Source of the DNA: a virus | Strand: one strand, 5' to 3' | IMG/VR virus record: IMGVR_UViG_3300046715_000037 | Span: 1-34,697 of that record | DNA length: 34,697 bases | Shown here: positions 5,263 to 18,650 of the stretch, one piece after another | How positions within the stretch are numbered: position 1 is the stretch's first letter | How the letters are laid out: each line of letters begins with the position of its first letter | Program-made: the position numbers and the translations under genes | The notes under the pieces: generated by a model | The model's input: only the letters and a program-made list of their open reading frames with translations | What the model was told of the DNA's origin: nothing | Databases searched by the model: none

Positions 5263-5766
5263 TTGTACACGAAACATGGCCACCATATTCCCGGAACCAT
5301 CCCCGAAGGTCCTGCCCCCAGTAGCAAAGCTCGTTGCGGTGGCGTGAGCTTGTGTACGATGTGCCTTCGTGAGGCCGCGGCGTTCCACGGCTACACCAAC
5401 ACGAATCAGGTCCTCGAACTCATGCACAAGCCTGCGACCGACGTAAAGATCTCGCCTCAGAAGAAGGCCATGGTCATCGTCGACGAGTACATCAAGGCCG
5501 GCCTTAAGTACCGTGAGGATAAGCCGGAGTACACCATTTACATCGTCTGGTTCTGCAAGACTTTGCAGCACTGGAAGGCGATGGTGTGCAGCGACCTTCC
5601 CGACCAGGAGTACTACGAGGTCACATACAACGGTGACAAAGAGGAGGCATATCTCGACGTCTACCGTAAGTACGACAACATTCGTATCGTCGACAACCAC
5701 AAGGGCGTCTTCAGAGATGGGAGCACGCGGGAAGAACCCCTCGACCATACCTTGTTCGGAGGTTAG
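5263..5766 (+). CDS. Two-part hypothetical protein: Cys-rich N-terminus plus DUF6275-like C-terminus
   Basis: 167 residues from TTG 5263, chosen because AGGAG (5253-5257) sits five bases upstream; the open frame extends further back but there overlaps the preceding gene. The N-terminal part has HGHHIPGT then RCGGVSLCTMCLREA, a layout common in actinophage small proteins. The C-terminal part (about residues 65-155) contains YIVWFCKTLQHWKAM, YYEVTYNGDKEEAYLDVY and KYDN, matching my memory of the DUF6275 family, widespread in phages of Gram-positive bacteria and of unknown function. The two halves are usually seen as separate proteins as far as I recall, so this may be a fusion. Confidence 0.65.
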   Translation: MYTKHGHHIPGTIPEGPAPSSKARCGGVSLCTMCLREAAAFHGYTNTNQVLELMHKPATDVKISPQKKAMVIVDEYIKAGLKYREDKPEYTIYIVWFCKTLQHWKAMVCSDLPDQEYYEVTYNGDKEEAYLDVYRKYDNIRIVDNHKGVFRDGSTREEPLDHTLFGG

Positions 5767-5826
5767 TTAGTACAGACCTCAACAGCTTCCCCATCTCTCC
5801 CGCATATTCAGAAGGAACACCTGAAC

Positions 5827-6048
5827 GTGGACGGCCCTCGGATCACGAACATCCCGGTCAAGAACCTCGATACCGTTGTCGGGACTGCTGAACTCGGAGC
5901 CGACGACAGGCTCGAGATCGAACTGAAGCACGGAGTTGCTGCTGAACTCAGGCAGCTTGTGATCATGGGTCTCGTGAGTGGTTTCGAACTCAACCCCAGC
6001 TATATCGCAGTTGTCCCGCACCCCAGGGACTCCACCGAAAACCTCTAG
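5827..6048 (+). CDS. Small hypothetical protein
   Basis: 73 residues from GTG 5827; AGAAGGA lies about ten bases upstream. The product is beta-rich, with NIPVKNLDTVVGTAEL and a DDRLEIELKHG strand and C-terminal PSYIAVVPHP. No family recognised. The 60-base leader before it contains one copy of the ATATTC motif (5804-5809). Confidence 0.55.
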   Translation: MDGPRITNIPVKNLDTVVGTAELGADDRLEIELKHGVAAELRQLVIMGLVSGFELNPSYIAVVPHPRDSTENL

Positions 6049-6065
6049 TTTTACTCTCTCCCCAT

Positions 6066-6082
6066 AAGGCGATCCACGCCTT
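6066..6082 (+). terminator. Perfect small hairpin between genes, terminator-like
   Basis: AAGGCG (6066-6071) pairs perfectly with CGCCTT (6077-6082) around the five-base loop ATCCA, followed by CATTTAA. The T-run is short, so termination would be weak or the hairpin may serve mRNA processing or stability. It lies in the 56-base gap between two small genes. Confidence 0.4.
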
Positions 6083-6104
6083 CATTTAAGGAAGACAATT
6101 TAAA

Positions 6105-6311
6105 ATGGGTAGGCACGAGAAGAAGCCTAAGAAGGACGATCCTAAGAAGGACGATCCTAAGAAGAAGGCCGAAGAGAAGAAGACAACCGGAAAGAAGCCA
6201 CTGCCTAAGGGGCCCACAGGCTCCTATGAGTCTCGTGGTGGTGAGACCGGTTCGAGTACGTCCGGCTCGTGGAACAACACAAATGAGTCGGACAAGAAAG
6301 AGAATGATTGA
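6105..6311 (+). CDS. Lysine-rich disordered hypothetical protein with tandem repeat
   Basis: 68 residues from ATG 6105 behind AAGGAAG. The N-terminal half is almost all Lys/Asp/Pro (KKPKKDDPKKDDPKKKAEEKK), encoded by 2.6 copies of a 15-base repeat (6126-6164), and the C-terminal half is Gly/Ser/Asn-rich. It is likely disordered and nucleic-acid or acidic-protein binding by charge alone. Its TGA overlaps the ATG of the probable ssDNA-binding protein, so the two are translationally coupled, which hints at a shared role. Confidence 0.6.
   Translation: MGRHEKKPKKDDPKKDDPKKKAEEKKTTGKKPLPKGPTGSYESRGGETGSSTSGSWNNTNESDKKEND
6126..6164 (+). repeat. 15-base tandem repeat, about 2.6 copies
   Basis: CCTAAGAAGGACGAT occurs at 6126-6140 and 6141-6155 and as a nine-base partial at 6156-6164. 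It encodes PKKDD units within the lysine-rich protein and keeps frame, so copy-number change would alter length without disrupting the gene. Confidence 0.85.
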
Positions 6312-6928: not shown

Positions 6929-7083
6929 GAGGCACTAACAAGTGCATACCCCGCTCTTTAGAACCACTCGCGTCATATTCACCAATCTATTCGCTGGAGG
7001 AGCGAGAAGAAGGCAGCGAGGTGTGATGTGTTCTGGGCCGTTATCGGGGGCATCCTTTCCATAGGTTTAGCAGACAAATTATT

Positions 7084-7108
7084 ATCCCGAGATCTCGGTT
7101 CTCGGGAT
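7084..7108 (+). promoter_or_regulatory. 9-base inverted repeat upstream of a start codon, possible operator or mRNA hairpin
   Basis: ATCCCGAGA (7084-7092) and TCTCGGGAT (7100-7108) are perfect inverted copies separated by seven bases, 15 bases before the ATG at 7124. The AT-rich stretch AAATTATTAT immediately before it could hold a -10 element, but no clear -35 is seen. It could be a repressor site or a 5'-UTR hairpin close to the ribosome binding site. Confidence 0.45.
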
Positions 7109-7123
7109 GTAAGGTGGAATGAT

Positions 7124-7570
7124 ATGACGTCTTTCGAGGTTCAGCGATACGTTCGGAAATCCTTCGACGTCGAGTGCGTTCAGGTGACCGAAGAGAACAT
7201 GTCCGCTGTTGCTCGTTGGTGCAAGGGCAGTATCCGTACCACCGAGCCGAGAAACCCGGCCACGGCCAAGCAGTACATTCACTTGAGTGTACCCAAGGTG
7301 AAGGACGAGCGACACGAGAGGGCCTACATCGGCGACTGGGTACTCCGTATGAACTACGGATTCAAGTTCTACAACGATCGCGCGTTCCACGAGGCGTTCG
7401 AGCTGCCGAAGCAGACTCCGACGCCCTCCGACATCGGCCAGCAGACGAACAGCGCCTCCGGCTTCTTCGCTAGGGTGCTGTCGCCCGAAGAGCACGATGC
7501 GCTGAAACTCGTCACGGCAGTCAGCAAAACCTTGGTCGAACTGGCCGGCTCGTCTGAGCGAGCGTCATAA
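7124..7570 (+). CDS. Conserved hypothetical phage protein
   Basis: 148 residues from ATG 7124, preferred because AAGGTGG (7111-7117) is six bases upstream. A GTG at 7028 (with GAGGTG before it) would add 32 residues beginning with a hydrophobic stretch (MFWAVIGGILSIGLADKLL), so a membrane-anchored form cannot be excluded. The core has VECVQVTEENMSAVARWC and ERAYIGDWVLRMNYGFKFY, then FHEAFE. This matches a small phage and bacterial family usually ending in GDYIV-G-FY-P-FE-YE, of unknown function. The C-terminal 50 residues are Ser/Ala/Pro-rich and probably flexible. A 514-base gene-free region follows. Confidence 0.6.
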   Translation: MTSFEVQRYVRKSFDVECVQVTEENMSAVARWCKGSIRTTEPRNPATAKQYIHLSVPKVKDERHERAYIGDWVLRMNYGFKFYNDRAFHEAFELPKQTPTPSDIGQQTNSASGFFARVLSPEEHDALKLVTAVSKTLVELAGSSERAS

Positions 7571-7591
7571 ATAGGCCTTAGGCTCAGAGCG

Positions 7592-8049
7592 GTTATAGGG
7601 TACCTTGTCCTTTATTAGGGCATCGGTATTAAACGGCCACGTCACACCTTCGCACAGATACGATCAAGTGACGGTAAGTGCGCCCTATAACGTGGTGACG
7701 TCAGGTTCGTACCTGGAAGAGCTAGGGAAATGGGAGTGAGCCTCCCCGTGAAGGGTTCTGACCCCACGTAGTGGCAAAGAGAACACGCCCTGGTAGGTAT
7801 ACGGACCTGACGTCATCTTAGATGGTGGCGTCAGGCTCTTGCGTTGCAAGTACTGGTTCAGATGTGGCACCTTCTCTCAGGTGAAGGTGGATAACCGAAA
7901 AGAGGCGCGGGTACACAGCCCCGCTACGCTAGAGTGGTGCGGTTCCAGACAGAGCGGTAGTTTCGCATAGTCGCAATGGTCATACCAATCCAGACGCGTA
8001 TGGTGTAGATGGTTGCACACTTACCAGTCACCAGGAGTCTGGCGTCACC
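7592..8049 (+). ncRNA. Candidate large structured non-coding RNA with three closed domains
   Basis: The 514 bases from 7571 to 8084 hold no credible gene but fold strongly. Domain I is closed by GTTATAGGG (7592-7600) with CCCTATAAC (7683-7691) and contains CGTCAC/GTGACG (7640-7645/7668-7673). Domain II is closed by 18 pairs (7694-7711/7800-7817) and contains 7722-7727/7788-7793, hairpin 7732-7736/7742-7746 and hairpin 7747-7756/7761-7768 with an AA bulge. Domain III is closed by 18 pairs (7824-7841/8032-8049) and contains 7852-7857/8023-8028, 7868-7874/7883-7889 and 7907-7911/7920-7924. Every non-Watson-Crick pair in the two long stems is G-U when read as + strand RNA; on the other strand these would be A-C mismatches, so the RNA is probably +. 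I could not match it to a tRNA or another known RNA. Size and complexity recall ornate phage RNAs such as GOLLD or ROOL, without any claim of homology. Confidence 0.7.
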
Positions 8050-8084
8050 TTCCCCCATATTACTCCGCATCAAGGAGCATCGTG

Positions 8085-8255
8085 ATGGCGATGGACTTCA
8101 ACAAGATTCACCAAGAGTACATGGACGATCTTCGCAACTTGCAGTTCTACTTCTCCACCCCTGAGAAGCCCGTCTCAGAGGAAGAGGCCAGGGAGTTCTT
8201 TAGTTCTTTGACCGACTCGGAGATCGATCAGCTCATCGACCTGGAGGTCATCTGA
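8085..8255 (+). CDS. Small acidic helical hypothetical protein
   Basis: 56 residues from ATG 8085, preferred because AAGGAG (8072-8077) is seven bases upstream; a frame opening at 8013 lies inside the structured RNA region and lacks a ribosome binding site. The product is acidic and helical (MDDLRNLQFYF, then SEEEAREFFSSLTDSEID). No family function known. Its TGA overlaps the next ATG, so the two are coupled. Confidence 0.6.
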   Translation: MAMDFNKIHQEYMDDLRNLQFYFSTPEKPVSEEEAREFFSSLTDSEIDQLIDLEVI

Positions 8256-9019: not shown

Positions 9020-9436
9020 ATGGGCACCGCTCAGCGCAACACCATCATCTTCATCATCTGCCTCGTCGGGGCATGCATCACGGCCGGCGTCATTGTCGCT
9101 CTTACCCCCGGTCACTTCAAGAAGGACTCGGGTGTCACGGCCTGCAAGACGATCTCGGAGAACATGGCCAAGAAGAAGACCGGCAGTGACAAGCCGATGA
9201 CCGAGGCCGAGTACAAGCGCCTTCGGGAGCCGTTCGAGAACTCGAGCCACGCGGACATCAAGGTGGCCGGCCTGAACATCCTCGACACGATCTATCAGGC
9301 GGACACGCAGCCGGACCCCAAGAACATCGGCGGCGCACTCATCCTGATGGGGACTCTCCAGGGCCAGTGGGGCCAACTTCAGACGGCATGCAGTAACCAG
9401 GGCGTGGACGTTCCCCAGCTGCCGATGGGCTCGTGA
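9020..9436 (+). CDS. Membrane-anchored hypothetical protein
   Basis: 138 residues from ATG 9020, with TTTAAGGAAC about ten bases upstream. Residues about 8-29 (TIIFIICLVGACITAGVIVAL) form one clear membrane segment preceded by few charges, so the remaining 108 hydrophilic residues are probably outside the membrane. They include two cysteines (ACKTIS and ACSNQG) that could form a disulfide. A role at the infected-cell envelope (exclusion or inhibition) is possible but unproven. Its TGA overlaps the next start. Confidence 0.6.
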   Translation: MGTAQRNTIIFIICLVGACITAGVIVALTPGHFKKDSGVTACKTISENMAKKKTGSDKPMTEAEYKRLREPFENSSHADIKVAGLNILDTIYQADTQPDPKNIGGALILMGTLQGQWGQLQTACSNQGVDVPQLPMGS

Positions 9437-9771
9437 TGAGACTCAGTCTTCTCTACCTGACCTCGGCTGCGCTTATTCTCGGGTCGGTGGCCTGTGCGCC
9501 TCCGCCTGAGAAGGGCGTAGTCATATCCACCATGTACAACCGGGCGCACTACGACGTGTACATGTACTGCGGGATGTACACGACCACCAGAAGCAACGGC
9601 GTCTCGTACACCAACTGCACTCTGTGGCTCACGGGTCACGACTGGGTTCCGGACGAGTGGTCTCTCAAGCTCAAGGATGGAAAGCATAAGGGTTGGAGGC
9701 AGGTCCCTCAGTCTGTCTACAACGGCCCATGTGGGCAACTGGACGCCATATATCCCGGCTGCATGAGTTGA
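9436..9771 (+). CDS. Probable secreted lipoprotein of phage early region
   Basis: 111 residues from ATG 9436, overlapping the previous stop. The N-terminus is a signal peptide (MRLSLLYLTSAALILGSVAC) whose end resembles a lipobox (SVAC) with Cys as the first mature residue. The mature part contains four more cysteines and an aromatic-rich core (YDVYMYCGMYTTTRSNG, WLTGHDWVPDEWSL). It would be exported and lipid-anchored on the host cell, next to the membrane protein before it; phage surface lipoproteins sometimes mediate superinfection exclusion, but that is inference. Confidence 0.6.
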   Translation: MRLSLLYLTSAALILGSVACAPPPEKGVVISTMYNRAHYDVYMYCGMYTTTRSNGVSYTNCTLWLTGHDWVPDEWSLKLKDGKHKGWRQVPQSVYNGPCGQLDAIYPGCMS

Positions 9772-9785
9772 TGGAGGAGAACGAC

Positions 9786-10796
9786 ATGGGCGACTTCGAC
9801 ATGAACGAACTTGTCGAGAGGTTCTACGTAATGAACCCCGAGACGGAGGACGTTCTTCCGACGGGTGAACAGCTGCGGAACGGTATGATCGTTCTGATCG
9901 AGTCGGCGGAGAGCAAGGCCGGACTCGAGTATGCCATCGAACCCGTCAAATTGGCCAACGCTCGTAAGACGAACCGTTGGTGCGAGGTGTCAGAGCTTCG
10001 TATCTGGCCCAACAGTCAGATCACCTTCATCGGCATCTACGCCGATGGCGTCAAGTGCCAGCGGACGGCACCTGTTCGTGACGCATGGCTCGTGACGATC
10101 GACAGCGTTCCCGACGCCGTGACCTCGGACACCGAGCCGCTCTACGTCAAGGAAGGCATCGACAAGCTGGCCACGATCAGCGACACGCTACAGACGCCCG
10201 AGAAATTCAACGACTGGTACAACACGGAAACCGCGTGGTGTTCGTCGATGCCCACCAGTTTGAAGGGCGTCGCGAAGGACTTCGCCTACGTTCCCAGCTT
10301 TGTCGAGACCCCCCTCGACTTCCACTGGGCCAAGCAACGTAAGCTCATCGATGAACACGAAACCCGCAACCTCATACATGGCCCGACGGTTCACCGACAG
10401 AACAATGTCGCCTGGCACGACCTCGATGTCGACGAGCAGGATGATCTGATTCGGTGGGCCAACAAGATGAGCAAGAGCCTCAACGAGGACGGCTACATCG
10501 AGGTCGAACCGACGTACGAGGTCCAGCTTAGGTCTGGCCTGCGGGTCGGCTTGGACAACCTCAAGATCCTCTTCCCCAAAGAGTTCGGGGTGGTCGAGGA
10601 GAAGAAGGTCGCAGTTAAGGATCAGGATCGCACGGCCAGCGTTAATGAGCTCTGGCAGCGATTCACGGACGCCGAGAAGGATGAGCTCATCGGGATCCAT
10701 CAGGTAACGGAGGGTCAGCTCGATGACGACGGCGAAATCATCCTGAAGTCGGGCGCCAAGATCTCGGGCTGGGAGTTCAAGAAACTATTCGAGTAA
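9786..10796 (+). CDS. Hypothetical protein with duplicated MNPETE domain (long paralog)
   Basis: 336 residues from ATG 9786, preferred because GGAGGAGA lies five bases upstream; ATG 9771 is an in-frame alternative. Residues about 8-110 contain VERFYVMNPETEDVL, GMIVLIES, NRWCEVSELRI and TFIGIYADGV. Nearly the same run of motifs recurs in 11049-11504, so the two genes share a paralogous domain. The remaining 220 residues are unique to this copy, with acidic helical segments and a repeated WHDL/ELWQRFTDAEKDELI pattern. No catalytic motif is obvious. It is probably an early accessory protein. Confidence 0.6.
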   Translation: MGDFDMNELVERFYVMNPETEDVLPTGEQLRNGMIVLIESAESKAGLEYAIEPVKLANARKTNRWCEVSELRIWPNSQITFIGIYADGVKCQRTAPVRDAWLVTIDSVPDAVTSDTEPLYVKEGIDKLATISDTLQTPEKFNDWYNTETAWCSSMPTSLKGVAKDFAYVPSFVETPLDFHWAKQRKLIDEHETRNLIHGPTVHRQNNVAWHDLDVDEQDDLIRWANKMSKSLNEDGYIEVEPTYEVQLRSGLRVGLDNLKILFPKEFGVVEEKKVAVKDQDRTASVNELWQRFTDAEKDELIGIHQVTEGQLDDDGEIILKSGAKISGWEFKKLFE

Positions 10797-10807
10797 GGAG
10801 GTGACGA

Positions 10808-10975
10808 ATGACCTTTGATGCGGTGCTCGACGAGAATTGGAAGCTCCTGTTCAACGACACGCCGGCCATGGTGAGAAAGTGGCTGAACGACCAGCCTTCC
10901 ACAAGCCACATGATAGTCGTCCCTGGCGACACCCTGAAGCAGAAGACGGTAGAAGAGTACCTGCACGGACTGTAG
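10808..10975 (+). CDS. Small hypothetical protein with ideal ribosome binding site
   Basis: 55 residues from ATG 10808 to TAG 10973-10975. The ribosome binding site AAGGAGGTGA (10795-10804) is a full complement of the 16S anti-Shine-Dalgarno region, which suggests strong translation. The product is compact and mixed-charge (MTFDAVLDENWKLLF, ending KTVEEYLHGL). No known family. Confidence 0.6.
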   Translation: MTFDAVLDENWKLLFNDTPAMVRKWLNDQPSTSHMIVVPGDTLKQKTVEEYLHGL

Positions 10976-11048
10976 GACCATACCCTGGGCATGATGTAAA
11001 AAGGCCCAGCAAGCTCGTCCCCCGAGAGCTCTATATAAGGAGTATCCA

Positions 11049-12234: not shown

Positions 12235-12477
12235 ATGTCCGACGACCCGCGTCGCGAAATGAACGCCTATGAGGCCGCCATCTATCTGGTCTTGAAAAAG
12301 AACCCCGGCATGGTGCACATTACCGAGGATGGAACCAAGCTATATCTGCTTGACCCCCATTCCGAAGGAATTATTTGCATCACGTCGACCACCAACTTCA
12401 AGACCATGACCGATGACGAAATCAGCAAGTTCGTCGCTGACTGCGCAACCGGAGACTGGACCCCCGTAGAAGAGTAG
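12235..12477 (+). CDS. Small hypothetical protein
   Basis: 80 residues from ATG 12235 with a strong AAGGAG (12223-12228). The protein begins acidic and helical (NAYEAAIYLVLKKN), has a beta-rich centre (KLYLLDPHSEGIICITS) and an acidic end. No family recognised. It is the last gene before a strong hairpin terminator, so it closes a transcription unit. Confidence 0.55.
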   Translation: MSDDPRREMNAYEAAIYLVLKKNPGMVHITEDGTKLYLLDPHSEGIICITSTTNFKTMTDDEISKFVADCATGDWTPVEE

Positions 12478-12484
12478 TCCCAAA

Positions 12485-12519
12485 AAAAGCAGGGCACCGA
12501 TACACGGTGTTCTGTTTTT
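12485..12519 (+). terminator. Strong rho-independent-type terminator, probably bidirectional
   Basis: Fifteen consecutive pairs join 12485-12499 to 12505-12519 around the loop ATACA, with three G-U pairs on the + strand. The 3' arm ends in TTTTT (12515-12519) and the 5' arm starts with seven A residues, so the structure can act in either direction. It begins eight bases after the stop of 12235-12477. Confidence 0.8.
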
Positions 12520-12552
12520 GCCTTAAGAATCAGACAAAAAGGACACGGAACG

Positions 12553-13017: not shown

Positions 13018-14255
13018 CGATAAATCTGGTCAAGGCCTTTGATGCGATCGGTCTACACGAGCATCAGAGAGATGCCCTCGGTAAGCTGACTAATGGTCGC
13101 ATATTGTGTGGTGGTGTAGGGTCAGGTAAGTCTCTTACGGCTGCTGCATATTACATGAAGAACGAGGCCCCTAGACCCGTCTACGTGATCACCACAGCCA
13201 AGAAGAGAGACTCTCTGGACTGGGAGGAAGAGTTCGTTAAGTTCGGTGTGGGAACGCAGGAGGGGGCTACTACGGCCGGCGTTCTGATAGTGGACTCGTG
13301 GAACAACATCAAGAAGTACAGCAACGTCTACGGTGCATTCTTCATATTCGACGAGCAAAGACTGGTGGGGTCGGGTGCTTGGACTAAGTCGTTTCTCAAG
13401 ATCGCCAAGAAGAACCACTGGCTACTACTTTCGGCCACACCCGGAGACACTTGGATGGATTACGTCCCTGTCTTCGTGGCGAATGGATTCTATAAGAATC
13501 GAACTGAATTCAAACGCGAGCACGTGGTCTACAACACGTTCAGCAACTACCCGAAGATCGATCGATACGTTAACATTGGACGACTTCTACGCCTTCGCCG
13601 AGAACTTCTGGTGGAGATGCCGTTCGATCGCCACACTATACGAAGACCAACGCACATCCAGGTCTCGTATGACAAGGAGGCGTTCAATAAGGTTCTCAAA
13701 GACAGATGGCATGTCTACGAGGATCGGCCGATCAAAGATGTCGGCGAGCTATACCATGTCATGCGGCGCGTGGTCAATAGCGATCCGTCTCGTCTTGAAG
13801 CGATCAAACGGCTCTTGGTGAAACACCCACAACTGATCATCTTCTATAGCTTCGATTACGAGCTAGATATCCTTAGAACGCTGGCTAATGAACGCAGCCC
13901 GCTTGCCTCCACTATGGGGGAGAAGGTTACAGTGGCCGAGTGGAACGGACACAACCACCACGAGATCCCGGACACTGACAGCTGGGTATATCTGGTTCAG
14001 TATACAGCCGGTGCTGAAGGGTGGAACTGCATCACCACGAATGCGACGGTTTTCTACTCCTTGCAGTACTCGTGGAAGACCTACGAGCAGTCGCACGGGC
14101 GCATCGATCGGATGAACACGCCCTATATCGACCTCTTCTACTACACTCTTCGCAGTCCGTCCTTCATCGACAAAGCGGTCTGGGCCAGCCTCTCGCAGAA
14201 GAAGAACTTCAACGAAAAACGCTTCACGGCCCGATTTCTAGATACCGACCGGTGA
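13014..14255 (+). CDS. SF2 (SNF2/DEAD-like) helicase
   Basis: 413 residues from ATG 13014, overlapping the preceding stop, with AGGTGG close upstream. Motif I is GGVGSGKS (33-40), motif II FIFDEQR (DEQR at 113-116), motif [14 protein letters not shown] (137-147), motif [11 protein letters not shown] and motif [10 protein letters not shown] (359-366). These give a complete two-lobe SF2 ATPase that would translocate on duplex DNA. Such SNF2-like helicases sit in many actinophage replication modules next to VRR-NUC and Cas4-like nucleases, as here, and may act in replication restart or recombination. The very end of the gene carries a copy of the AGATACC sequence that recurs around the downstream HNH cassette. 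Confidence 0.85.
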
Positions 14256-14278
14256 AAATGTCCGGATTTTCTCTCCGT

Positions 14279-14455
14279 CATGTCAAAACCAAGATGCTCG
14301 ACAAAAAGTTTTAATTTTTTGCACGCTCGGTATCTAGATTCTGGGGTGTTTCTGTCATATCCTAGCGTAATCCCTCCCCTATAAATGATTAAAATAATAG
14401 ATACCAAGTATGCAAAAAATAAAAACTTTTTGTTCGAGGTCTTGGATTTGACATG
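14279..14455 (+). repeat. Large AT-rich imperfect inverted repeat
   Basis: Bases 14279-14322 match the reverse complement of 14412-14455 at about 40 of 45 aligned positions with one gap per side. The similarity continues inward as GGTATCTA (14329-14336) with TAGATACC (14398-14405). A competing perfect 12-base pairing joins 14237-14248 with 14327-14338. The arms contain A5 and T6 runs, so the structure could terminate transcription in both directions or be the core of a small mobile element. This 225-base gap (14256-14480) has no credible gene and is strikingly AT-rich compared with its surroundings. Confidence 0.75.
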
Positions 14456-15383: not shown

Positions 15384-15894
15384 CCCGAGCAGTCCTGCTT
15401 GGTTGAACTACAACGAGGACAAGCTCAGTCGGGTATATCTGGCGTCGATCGCTGCCGCCAAAGGAACGCGAAAGCATGCCGTTGCGCATGAGCTCATTGA
15501 TCTGAGGATCAAGCTCCCCGACGACGGTAAGACCATGAGTCTTTATGTGAACGACGCTATCGGTTACCAGATGGCGTGCGAGCAACCTCTCGTGTTCGGG
15601 CCGCACTGCTGGGGCACAGCAGACACCATGTGCTACAGACATGAAACACTTCGTATTCATGATCTGAAGACCGGTGCGAACGAAGCCTCGATGGTTCAAC
15701 TCGAGATTTACGCCGCTCTGTTCTGTCTCGAATACCAGTTCAACCCGTTCGAGCTCCCGATGGAGCTCCGAATCTACCAGAACAACGGGGTCAAAGTCCA
15801 TATTCCTAAGGGCACTGATATAGTGCCCATCATGGACAAGATCATCGCCTACAGCAAGCTGATCGAGCAGATAAGATCGGAGGTGCGTTTGTGA
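15337..15894 (+). CDS. Cas4/RecB-like PD-(D/E)XK exonuclease
   Basis: 185 residues from GTG 15337, chosen because AGAGGAAA lies about seven bases upstream and because phage homologs I recall begin MDF-VH-LSGHAFLSPS. The nuclease core is HAVAHELI after GTRKH (H47), GTADTM (D96), IHDLKTG (D109, K111) and QLEIYAALF (Q121, Y125), the RecB/Cas4 arrangement. It probably resects DNA ends during phage recombination, together with the VRR-type nuclease and SF2 helicase encoded just upstream. No Cys cluster for an iron-sulfur site is evident, unlike true Cas4. Confidence 0.75.
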   Translation: MDFNVHSNLSGHAFLSPSSPAWLNYNEDKLSRVYLASIAAAKGTRKHAVAHELIDLRIKLPDDGKTMSLYVNDAIGYQMACEQPLVFGPHCWGTADTMCYRHETLRIHDLKTGANEASMVQLEIYAALFCLEYQFNPFELPMELRIYQNNGVKVHIPKGTDIVPIMDKIIAYSKLIEQIRSEVRL

Positions 15895-18650
15895 TCATTT
15901 CTGAAGAAGAGCACGCGAGAATGAACCGCGGCGCCCTCCATAGTTCGGACCTCGATGAAGAAGAGGTCGATGATACTCCTGAAGGAGAGATCAAGCACTA
16001 CGGCATCCTCCGTAGGTCAGGCCGATACCCTTGGGGTTCGGGTGGCAGTCAAGCTGCTCGTAGTTCGGAGTTCCTCAACATCGTTGACGGGCTGCGTAAA
16101 GAAGGTCTCAGTGAAGTAGAGATCGCTCGCGGCTTCGGTATGACTGTGACCCAGCTTCGTAACACGAACACCATCGCGAAGAACGCCAAGAAGCAGGCCG
16201 ATATTGACATGGCCCAGCGTCTTAGCGAAAAGGGTATGTCGAACATCGCCATCGGCAGACAGATGAAGATCAACGAGTCTTCGGTTCGTGCGCTACTGGC
16301 TCCGGGTCAGAGGGACAAACTCAACGTTCTCCACACCACCGCAAATATGCTTCGTGAGCAGGTGGATGCGAAGGGCGCAATCGACATCGGTACAGGTAAC
16401 GAGAACTATCTCGGCATCAGCAAAGAGAAGCTCGCTACCGCGGTCGCCATCCTCAAGGACGAGGGCTATAAGGTCCATCAGGTTAAGGTGCCTCAGCTTG
16501 GCACCAACAAGCCGACTACGATCAAGGTTCTCGCCAAAGAAGAAGTACAGTGGCATGATCTGGTCAAGGACCCGAGCAAGATCAAGTCTCTCGTGCAATA
16601 CTCAGAAGATGGTGGACGATCCTACAACGGAATCAGTCCACCTCTTCAGGTCAACTCCAAACGAATCGGCATTCGCTACGCCAAGGACGGTGGCGCAGAT
16701 GCTGATGGTGTGATCTATGTCAGGCCAGGTGTCGAAGATCTCTCCCTTGGTAAGGGACGCTATGCTCAGGTTCGTATCGCTGTTGACGGTACGCACTACC
16801 TCAAGGGTATGGCAATGTACAGAGACGACCTGCCGGCTGGCGTAGACCTTCTCTTCAACACCAACAAGAACAACACGGGTAACAAGCTCGACGCCATGAA
16901 GCCGATCAAGGAGGACGAAGAGAGCCCGTTCGGGGCAATCGTTCGACAGATCAAGAGTCCTGATGGCAAGGTCACCTCAGCGATGAACATCGTTGGTGGT
17001 AAAGAGGGCATGGGCGAAGAAGGTGGTTGGGACGCGTGGTCTAAGACTCTGTCGTCTCAGATGCTTTCTAAGCAGAGCCCTAAGCTGGCCAAGTCACAGC
17101 TCGACATGACGTACGAGCAGAAGCGAAACGATCTCGACGAGATCAAGAAGCTGACCAACCCATCCGTCAAGAAGAAGTTGTTGCAGTCCTACGCTGATGA
17201 TGTCGATTCCTCAGCCGTCCATCTCAAGGCTGCGCACCTGCCTAGGCAGGAGACTAAGGTAATCCTTCCGATCAACTCTCTGAAGGAGAACGAGATCTAT
17301 GCGCCTACCTTCCGTGATGGTGAACGAGTAGTACTGATTCGCTACCCTCATGGTGGCGTCTTCGAGATTCCAGAACTCACCGTTAACAACAGGCACCCTC
17401 AAGCTAAGAAGCTGATCGATCAGGCTCCCGATGCTGTGGGTATCAGCCATAAGGTAGCAGCCAAACTGTCGGGTGCTGACTTCGATGGTGACACAGTTCT
17501 GGTCATCCCGAACAACCACAAGAAGATCAAGACTAAGCCACCTCTTGAGGGCTTGAAGGGATTCGATCCTCAGCGTGCGTACCCTGGTTATGAGGGTATG
17601 ACGAAGATGGATGCACGAACTAAGGGTCGTGAGATGGGGCAGGTTTCTAACCTCATCACCGACATGACCATCAAGGGTGCTAGTGATGGCGAGCTTGCTC
17701 GAGCCGTTCGCCATTCCATGGTAGTCATCGACGCTGAGAAGCATGGCCTTGACTGGAAACGGTCTGCTATAGACAACGGCATTCCCCAGTTGAAGGAGAA
17801 GTATCAGGGCAAGAAGAATGGTGGCGCTTCAACCCTGATCTCGAAAGCTACGTCACCAATCAACGTTCTTGAAAGAAACCCCCGCCCTGCATCAAAGGGC
17901 GGTCCTATCGATCCAGCTACAGGTAAGAAGGTCTTCGAGCCTACTGGTCGTAGCTACGTCAAGACGAAGGTTAACAAGCGTACTGGTGCGGTGACAGAGA
18001 AGGTCATCGACCGTATGGAGCGTTCTCAGAAGCTTGCTGAGACGGACAATGCACACACCCTGTCTTCTGGTACGTCCATAGAGAAGGTGTACGCAGACCA
18101 CTCTAACAAGCTTAAGAGTCTGGCTAACGAAGCTAGGAAGGAACTGGTTCACACTAAGAACATTCCTTACTCTCCGTCAGCTAAGAGAATCTATGCTGAT
18201 CAAGTAGCCTCCCTGTCCAGGAAACTGGACATTGCCAAGAGGAATGCCCCACTCGAAAGGCAAGCCCAGGTCATAGCCAATGCCAAGGCATCGGCAAAGA
18301 TCAAGGCGAACAAAGATCTCGAAGCTTCTGAGATCAAGAAGATCAAGTATCAAGCTCTTACTGATGCTCGCATTCGTACCGGGGCAGAGAAACAACGCAT
18401 CAACATCACACCAGATGAGTGGGCTGCCATTCAAGCTGGTGCCATAACATCACACAGACTCAAAGAGATCTTGGACAACACAGACGATGATGTAGTCAAG
18501 CAGTTGGCTACACCTAAGTCTAAGGTCTTGATGACCAACACTAAGAAGCAACGAGCCCAGATCATGTTGGCTGGTGGCTACACACAGGCTGAGATAGCTG
18601 ATGCTCTTGGTGTGTCTGTCTCTACACTCAAGCGAAGTCTTGGTGAGTGA
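15891..18650 (+). CDS. Two-barrel (YonO/QDE-1-like) RNA polymerase candidate with HTH segments and RSGRYPWGSG tag
   Basis: 919 residues from GTG 15891, overlapping the preceding stop. An N-terminal tag HYGILRRSGRYPWGSG lies at residues 36-51. Two HTH-like segments follow (GLSEVEIARGFGMTVTQL at about 72-89 and GMSNIAIGRQMKINESSV at about 115-132). Residues 480-540 read like a beta-prime double-psi barrel: VVLIRYPHGG, then SGADFDGDTVLVIP with the DxDGD triad D530, D532, D534, which binds the catalytic magnesium in cellular and YonO-type RNA polymerases. A basic helical region follows and a third HTH (GYTQAEIADALGVSVSTL) ends the protein. The likely role is phage gene transcription. The tag is of a kind I associate with phage structural or packaged proteins, and the gene borders the late module, so a virion-carried enzyme is possible. 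Codon use is less GC-rich at third positions than in the capsid gene. The polymerase call rests mainly on one motif region. Confidence 0.65.
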   Translation: MIISEEEHARMNRGALHSSDLDEEEVDDTPEGEIKHYGILRRSGRYPWGSGGSQAARSSEFLNIVDGLRKEGLSEVEIARGFGMTVTQLRNTNTIAKNAKKQADIDMAQRLSEKGMSNIAIGRQMKINESSVRALLAPGQRDKLNVLHTTANMLREQVDAKGAIDIGTGNENYLGISKEKLATAVAILKDEGYKVHQVKVPQLGTNKPTTIKVLAKEEVQWHDLVKDPSKIKSLVQYSEDGGRSYNGISPPLQVNSKRIGIRYAKDGGADADGVIYVRPGVEDLSLGKGRYAQVRIAVDGTHYLKGMAMYRDDLPAGVDLLFNTNKNNTGNKLDAMKPIKEDEESPFGAIVRQIKSPDGKVTSAMNIVGGKEGMGEEGGWDAWSKTLSSQMLSKQSPKLAKSQLDMTYEQKRNDLDEIKKLTNPSVKKKLLQSYADDVDSSAVHLKAAHLPRQETKVILPINSLKENEIYAPTFRDGERVVLIRYPHGGVFEIPELTVNNRHPQAKKLIDQAPDAVGISHKVAAKLSGADFDGDTVLVIPNNHKKIKTKPPLEGLKGFDPQRAYPGYEGMTKMDARTKGREMGQVSNLITDMTIKGASDGELARAVRHSMVVIDAEKHGLDWKRSAIDNGIPQLKEKYQGKKNGGASTLISKATSPINVLERNPRPASKGGPIDPATGKKVFEPTGRSYVKTKVNKRTGAVTEKVIDRMERSQKLAETDNAHTLSSGTSIEKVYADHSNKLKSLANEARKELVHTKNIPYSPSAKRIYADQVASLSRKLDIAKRNAPLERQAQVIANAKASAKIKANKDLEASEIKKIKYQALTDARIRTGAEKQRINITPDEWAAIQAGAITSHRLKEILDNTDDDVVKQLATPKSKVLMTNTKKQRAQIMLAGGYTQAEIADALGVSVSTLKRSLGE

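Follow-up and report, generated by a model that had tools for sequence, protein, structure and literature searches.

A Pistol ribozyme with an enlarged P3 stem ahead of a structured RNA in a phage operon, and the recurrence of Pistols in front of large phage RNAs

A Pistol ribozyme with an enlarged P3 stem has been identified directly ahead of two long-stemmed RNA domains in a viral sequence of 34,697 bases (IMG/VR record IMGVR_UViG_3300046715_000037; the whole stretch is called the window below), where it probably serves as a head that releases a structured phage RNA of the ornate type, which also leads the downstream mRNA. This reading, held with moderate confidence, stands on the identity of the Pistol, the anatomy of its P3 and the covariation of that stem against a syntenic viral contig, a module shared with the P3 of other Pistols, and the fact that Pistols repeatedly precede large RNAs. 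The Pistol fold is already known, whereas the structured P3 insert, the two downstream domains, and the link between Pistols and large RNAs are new. The more interesting result, which reaches past the window, is the recurrent link: Pistols repeatedly head large structured phage RNAs, including GOLLD, in a pattern that is apparently new.

The polymerase and other genes of the window match those of actinobacterial phages (Streptomyces, Gordonia, Arthrobacter, and Rhodococcus), and the structured RNA is located in the early/replication operon. All features described here lie on the + strand. The upstream gene (7028-7570, 180 aa, phrog_35556) has a homolog that precedes a Pistol in the viral contig L026, and its stop codon (7568-7570) sits within the conserved AUAAAUA of the ribozyme. 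The Pistol element thus begins in the last codons of this gene, about 45 nt before position 7592, a start that the earlier note on this DNA had missed. On the other side, a Shine-Dalgarno sequence (AAGGAG, 8072-8077) and a gene of 56 aa (8085-8255) form a unit at 8072-8255, which by eye is homologous to the post-Pistol gene of L026, and this ribosome site begins 23 nt past the last structured domain.

A cmscan search against Rfam placed the Pistol ribozyme (RF02679) at 7548-7622 with 37.5 bits against a gathering threshold of 34.5 (E-value 0.0016 over the whole window and 3.6e-5 over the region), and this was the sole Rfam family reported in the window. The earlier note had seen a three-domain RNA, a new or divergent example of the ornate phage RNAs. 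Its stems are real, but the domains are not equivalent, as domain 1 is the P3 of the Pistol and a cut is predicted before domain 2. Novelty accordingly falls away for domain 1, which belongs to a known family, and is retained just for the 357 nt of structured RNA after the predicted cut, for which no homolog was found.

The Pistol with its expanded P3 spans 7548-7696; its boundaries were redrawn by hand on the cmscan result because the Rfam model is built for a short P3 and misaligns this arm. According to the Rfam alignment and the sequence, P1 has 4 bp (7548-7551/7560-7563) around a loop at 7552-7559, from which CUGAGC (7554-7559) pairs with GCUCAG (7582-7587) in a 6-bp pseudoknot of the P1-loop/J2-3 type (PMC4604425). 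The 5' strand of P2 is GGCC at 7574-7577, of which 7575-7577 form 3 bp with G7694-U7696, the same P2 as in the Pistol of L026; these last three bases double as the first three of the domain 2 stem. P3 consists of 9 bp (7592-7600/7683-7691) and carries an insert of 82 nt (7601-7682), and a Pistol parser that was applied to all Pistols recovered the same P3 independently. According to Harris et al. 2015 (PMC4604425), Pistol ribozymes cut in a junction of exactly two nucleotides, usually GU, and in the window such a junction, G7692 U7693, separates the 3' strand of P3 from that of P2. With P1, P2, P3, and the P1-loop pseudoknot all present and the conserved AUAAAUA, UUAGGC, and GAGCG intact, the ribozyme would, by this position rule, cleave itself at G7692/U7693. 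As the predicted cut falls directly before domain 2, domains 2 and 3 would together be the 3' cleavage product. In addition, the window Pistol carries a 3-nt insert between P1 and AUAAAUA, which, together with the 3-bp P2, could reduce its activity.

A simpler version of this arrangement was found in L026, where a homolog of the upstream gene is followed, straight after its stop codon, by a Pistol and then by what is, by eye, a homolog of the downstream gene. This Pistol has an ordinary short P3, lacks domains 2 and 3, and leaves about 50 nt from the cut to the next gene. Two compensatory changes (U-A to C-G and A-U to G-C) distinguish the P3 stem of the window from that of L026. Relative to this simpler Pistol at the same place, domains 2 and 3 as well as the P3 insert are thus additions. 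When relatives were sought via the upstream gene and the DNA polymerase, L026 alone was syntenic with a Pistol; a Pistol at the corresponding place was absent from eight contigs with related polymerases (L140-L147), and no comparable gap was seen at that place in RosaAsantewaa, ReqiPoco6, and Perkunas, the isolated phages with the nearest polymerases.

The three closing stems proposed earlier were recovered in both the MFE and the centroid folds. The first is the P3 stem, with no G-U pair; the second closes domain 2 (7694-7817) with 18 bp (7694-7711/7800-7817), including 2 G-U; and the third closes domain 3 (7824-8049) with 18 bp (7824-7841/8032-8049), including 4 G-U. All six exceptions to Watson-Crick pairing among the 45 pairs are G-U on the + strand, as the earlier note had pointed out. 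The nested hairpins that it listed within these stems also occur in the sequence, and the one at 7747-7756/7761-7768 has 8 bp with an AA bulge. Folding of 7560-8080 gave -201.2 kcal/mol against -173.4 +/- 6.8 for shuffled sequences (z -4.1, with 0 of 100 as stable), which agrees with the expected excess of stability. The excess was z -5.0 for domain 2 and z -3.9 for domain 3, whereas the interior of each domain reached only z -0.6, indicating that by energy the nested hairpins are within chance. Domains 2 and 3 together had z -5.1, about the best 3% of the windows of this genome; as 5% of its 360-nt windows fall below z -4.7, a low z by itself is weak evidence here. The P3 stem and the two 18-bp stems are beyond chance, and the nested hairpins are not. 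An alternative four-arm fold, in which the 5' arm of domain 2 pairs with the 3' arm of domain 3, is possible and about 10 kcal/mol worse.

If the stems of domains 2 and 3 were products of chance or relics, the Pistol would be the only functional element, and the modest rank of the region among the genome windows and the failure to find homologs would both be expected. However, two adjacent uninterrupted 18-bp stems are very improbable (none of 300 shuffles for domain 2 and one of 300 for domain 3), and intergenic space is scarce in phages, which makes this explanation extremely unlikely.

No homolog of domains 2 and 3 was detected in Pistol-bearing and related loci totalling about 2.9 Mb, nor did blastn find any above chance in phages and plasmids. 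A pattern drawn from the domain 2 stem gave seven chance matches with no Pistol nearby. As no homolog was found, no covariation could be obtained for these domains, and the claim that they function as RNA is based on the two improbable stems and on analogy. The region is not a tRNA, in agreement with the first impression (ARAGORN reported 0, and Rfam gave no tRNA or tmRNA match). Among the ornate phage RNAs, GOLLD (RF02032) had no match in 7400-8200 by cmscan at E-values up to 10, and ROOL (RF03087) had no covariance-model match in the window. The search for a terminator or processing site marking the 3' end of the structured RNA found none. It is also conceivable, if very unlikely, that domains 2 and 3 are a small mobile DNA insertion with the outer arms GGTGACGTCAGGTTC and GAGTCTGGCGTCACC as terminal inverted repeats. 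These arms are able to pair over 15 bp, and the syntenic L026 lacks the insert; nevertheless, the arms number four instead of two, every one of the six mismatches is G-U on a single strand, and neither further copies nor direct repeats were identified. A tandem duplication as the origin of the two domains was rejected as well, their likeness being confined to 15-nt arms.

From this arrangement we infer cleavage, an order of events, protection of the ends, and an RNA function of domains 2 and 3, which may be outlined as follows. The Pistol at the stop codon of the early gene would form the 5' head of domains 2 and 3, which run into the next mRNA. During transcription of the operon, the ribozyme would fold and cut at G7692/U7693, leaving the upstream mRNA with a 3' end at the base of the P3/M1 structure (M1 being a module of the P3 insert that is described below) and the downstream RNA with a 5'-OH U and an 18-bp helix one base from its end. 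The domain 2 helix may then reclaim G7694-U7696 from P2 and push the ribozyme away; because these bases are common to P2 and the domain 2 stem, the completed stem could displace P2 and render the cut irreversible. Once freed, the RNA would be stable and do its work as one of the "large ornate" phage RNAs; as it extends into the ribosome site of the following gene, it may serve as a leader, as a free RNA, or in both roles.

The main rival to an ornate RNA is protection of mRNA, a rather doubtful reading in which the Pistol merely splits a polycistronic mRNA, stems 2 and 3 shield the 5'-OH end and insulate the next ribosome site, and there is no ornate RNA that has an independent function. It would account for the predicted cut one base ahead of an 18-bp helix, for the ribosome site only 23 nt past domain 3, for domain interiors that are within chance, and for the failure to find conserved sequence in domains 2 and 3. 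However, end protection needs far less than 357 nt (L026 does with its ~50 nt), and elsewhere Pistols with long P3 loops precede conserved RNAs whose loops are conserved in sequence. An ornate RNA is preferred on the strength of the RNAs that accompany long-P3 Pistols elsewhere.

The P3 insert contains a three-way-junction module, M1 (7598-7685), which consists of GGG (7598-7600), hairpin H1 (7601-7628), UUAAACGGC (7629-7637), H2 (7640-7645/7669-7674), and GCG-CCC (7680-7685); it sits across the predicted cut from domains 2 and 3. A descriptor of this module (GGG-hairpin-UUAAACGRC...GYGCCC) was drawn up from an element recurring in the Pistol regions of other phages, and it matched eight times in all when both strands of 3.0 Mb of fetched sequence were searched, in each case on the strand of a Pistol core and 55-862 nt 3' of it, with no match away from a Pistol in these 3.0 Mb. 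Seven of the eight, the window included, were in view when the descriptor was drawn up, and the fair claim is hence that M1 is rare elsewhere and that the only new match, the second one in L132, is again preceded by a Pistol. The core words of M1 arose in 5 of 200,000 shuffles of the P3 insert of the window. Automatic alignment of M1 (A2) fails to register its closing stem. A pattern of P3 with UUAAACG also matched L148 and L149, by chance, within coding DNA and with no Pistol.

In the window, L076, and L082, the module is part of P3; in L022, L086, L116, and L132 (twice), it stands at a greater distance 3' of the Pistol. The conserved UUAAACGRC junction within three P3 stems could point to a natural aptazyme, in which the P3 insert senses a ligand or protein and sets the cutting of the transcript, with domains 2 and 3 simply following; tRNA-like sequences within the P3 of L080 and of Microbacterium phage Count, and P2 bases that are common to the domain 2 stem and could gate cleavage, would fit as well. 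Nevertheless, M1 is also found away from P3, at distances of up to 862 nt, and is thus not tied to the control of cleavage, so that such a sensor is unlikely. Another module, GGGCG-CUAAG..CUUAC-UGUCUG..GUCAG-RCCGCCC, shifts its position among P3, the stretch before the Pistol, and the 3' end of the RNA, being found upstream of the Pistol in L154 and L156, at the 3' end in L080, and in the P3 of many class-1 loci (see below). Similarly, tRNA-like sequences occur just before the Pistol in Microbacterium phage Camille, in addition to the P3 of Count and L080 (L034 3041-3180; L160 4955-5110; L080 P3), and none was called a tRNA by any tool.

Beyond the window, a Pistol pattern run over IMG/VR yielded at least 139 parsed Pistols, including that of the window. 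Among the matches listed, a noncoding stretch of at least 150 nt followed the cut in 27 of 36 Pistols with a P3 loop of at least 40 nt, compared with 25 of 70 others (Fisher p 2e-4). In 4 of 38 further Pistol-bearing records, GOLLD was found on the strand of the Pistol and 3' of it, at distances of about 0.3, 0.3, 1.4, and 1.5 kb, which suggests that GOLLD can have a Pistol as its processing head. These loci are L021 1867-2616, G001 5514-6263, G016 17-1803, and G035 9101-11039. ROOL gave no match in the same 38 records, in which its controls were equally silent. In Gordonia phages GMA2 and Orchid, a Pistol lies ahead of tRNA or tmRNA genes. A literature search of partial coverage returned no paper pairing "pistol ribozyme" with GOLLD, and a cryo-EM paper on GOLLD and ROOL leaves self-cleavage unmentioned; in view of this coverage, the pattern is called apparently undescribed.

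At least about twenty-five Pistols among the matches listed share a conserved RNA right 3' of the cut, the GUGAAGG/AAACAAAAAACCG class (class-1), in which hairpin A (CUGUG-AAGGnnA-CACAG or relatives) is followed by hairpin B, AAACAAAAAACCG, and further stems. Its loci include L105, L085, L111, L101, L113, L097, and L151-L159, and the isolated Microbacterium phages Count and Camille bear related RNAs. A search for this RNA that did not require a Pistol retrieved 15 viral stretches, and a Pistol was directly 5' in all 14 that had upstream sequence. In the members scanned, Rfam reported the Pistol alone, and no Rfam family covers the RNA. A covariance model (R1) was built from 19 members, which score 30-75 bits; the window reaches 3.2 bits at best and hence is not of this class. 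In bacterial genomes, the class-1 pattern gave one chance match, at a Pseudomonas terminator. The apical loop of hairpin B at class-1 loci is mostly the palindrome UGAUCA, and variants are also six-base palindromes (UAGCUA in L097, AUCGAU in L022, and UGGCCA in L125), while the loops of L157 and L158 are non-palindromic; judging from these sequences, the palindromic loops hint at possible loop-loop homodimers. Pairing between the loops of hairpin A and of the P3 module was dropped as an idea, because these loops vary with no corresponding changes in each other.

It is possible, and proposed only tentatively, that the window belongs to a large and as yet undescribed superfamily, GOLLD included, of Pistol heads combined with exchangeable modules, whose RNAs would be cut free in transcription and form RNA particles. 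The modules, which could occupy P3, the stretch before the ribozyme, or the 3' end, would be M1 and related three-way junctions as well as tRNA-like units. If the Pistol is a built-in 5' processing head, the natural roles of Pistol ribozymes and of GOLLD-type RNAs become jointly testable: the cut site would give the exact 5' end of the mature large RNA, and one point mutation in the ribozyme would probe whether release matters. In addition, a long-P3 Pistol followed by a gene-free gap provides a handle for large RNAs outside Rfam.

Several other features of the window were recorded. An A+T-rich gap at 14237-14455 has nested inverted repeats of 58 bp and 22 bp with three TAGATACC arms; its folding z-score is the lowest in the window, and it is possibly an origin or regulatory site. 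A protein of 919 aa (15891-18650) is related to genes of Gordonia phage Avazak and Streptomyces phage Scarif that are annotated as "RNA-dependent RNA polymerase"; its Pfam match is limited to a C-terminal HTH, and it is perhaps a phage RNA polymerase. A candidate terminator-like hairpin with a T-rich tail lies at 12480-12520, after the gene at 12235-12477 (z -6.8 for its 360-nt window).

Compared with known systems, the window has in common with Pistol RF02679 P1, the P1-loop pseudoknot, the conserved AUAAAUA, UUAGGC, and GAGCG, P3, the GU junction, and P2. It departs from the typical Pistol in the 82-nt structured P3 insert that Rfam misaligns, the 3-nt insert after P1, a 3-bp P2 common to the next helix, and ~357 nt of structured RNA 3' of the cut. 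Like GOLLD (RF02032) and ROOL (RF03087), it has a structured phage RNA in a gene-free gap, whereas it shows no sequence or model match to them, has 357 nt against their 600-800, and has no tRNA nearby; the likeness to ornate phage RNAs drawn in the earlier note thus remains one of context, and Rfam excludes a known GOLLD or ROOL. The GUGAAGG/AAACAAAAAACCG RNAs resemble the window in having a Pistol head, an enlarged P3, and then structured RNA (250-450 nt in the class) before the next gene, and four members (L022, L116, L132, and L086) also carry M1, while the window is without hairpin A, hairpin B, and the A-rich element. Finally, the Theta (HDV-like) ribozymes of gut phages are located at tRNA boundaries (PMC10879173); they have another fold and concern tRNA processing with no large RNA, and, like the window Pistol, they are self-cleaving ribozymes of phages that lie at the boundaries of structured RNAs.
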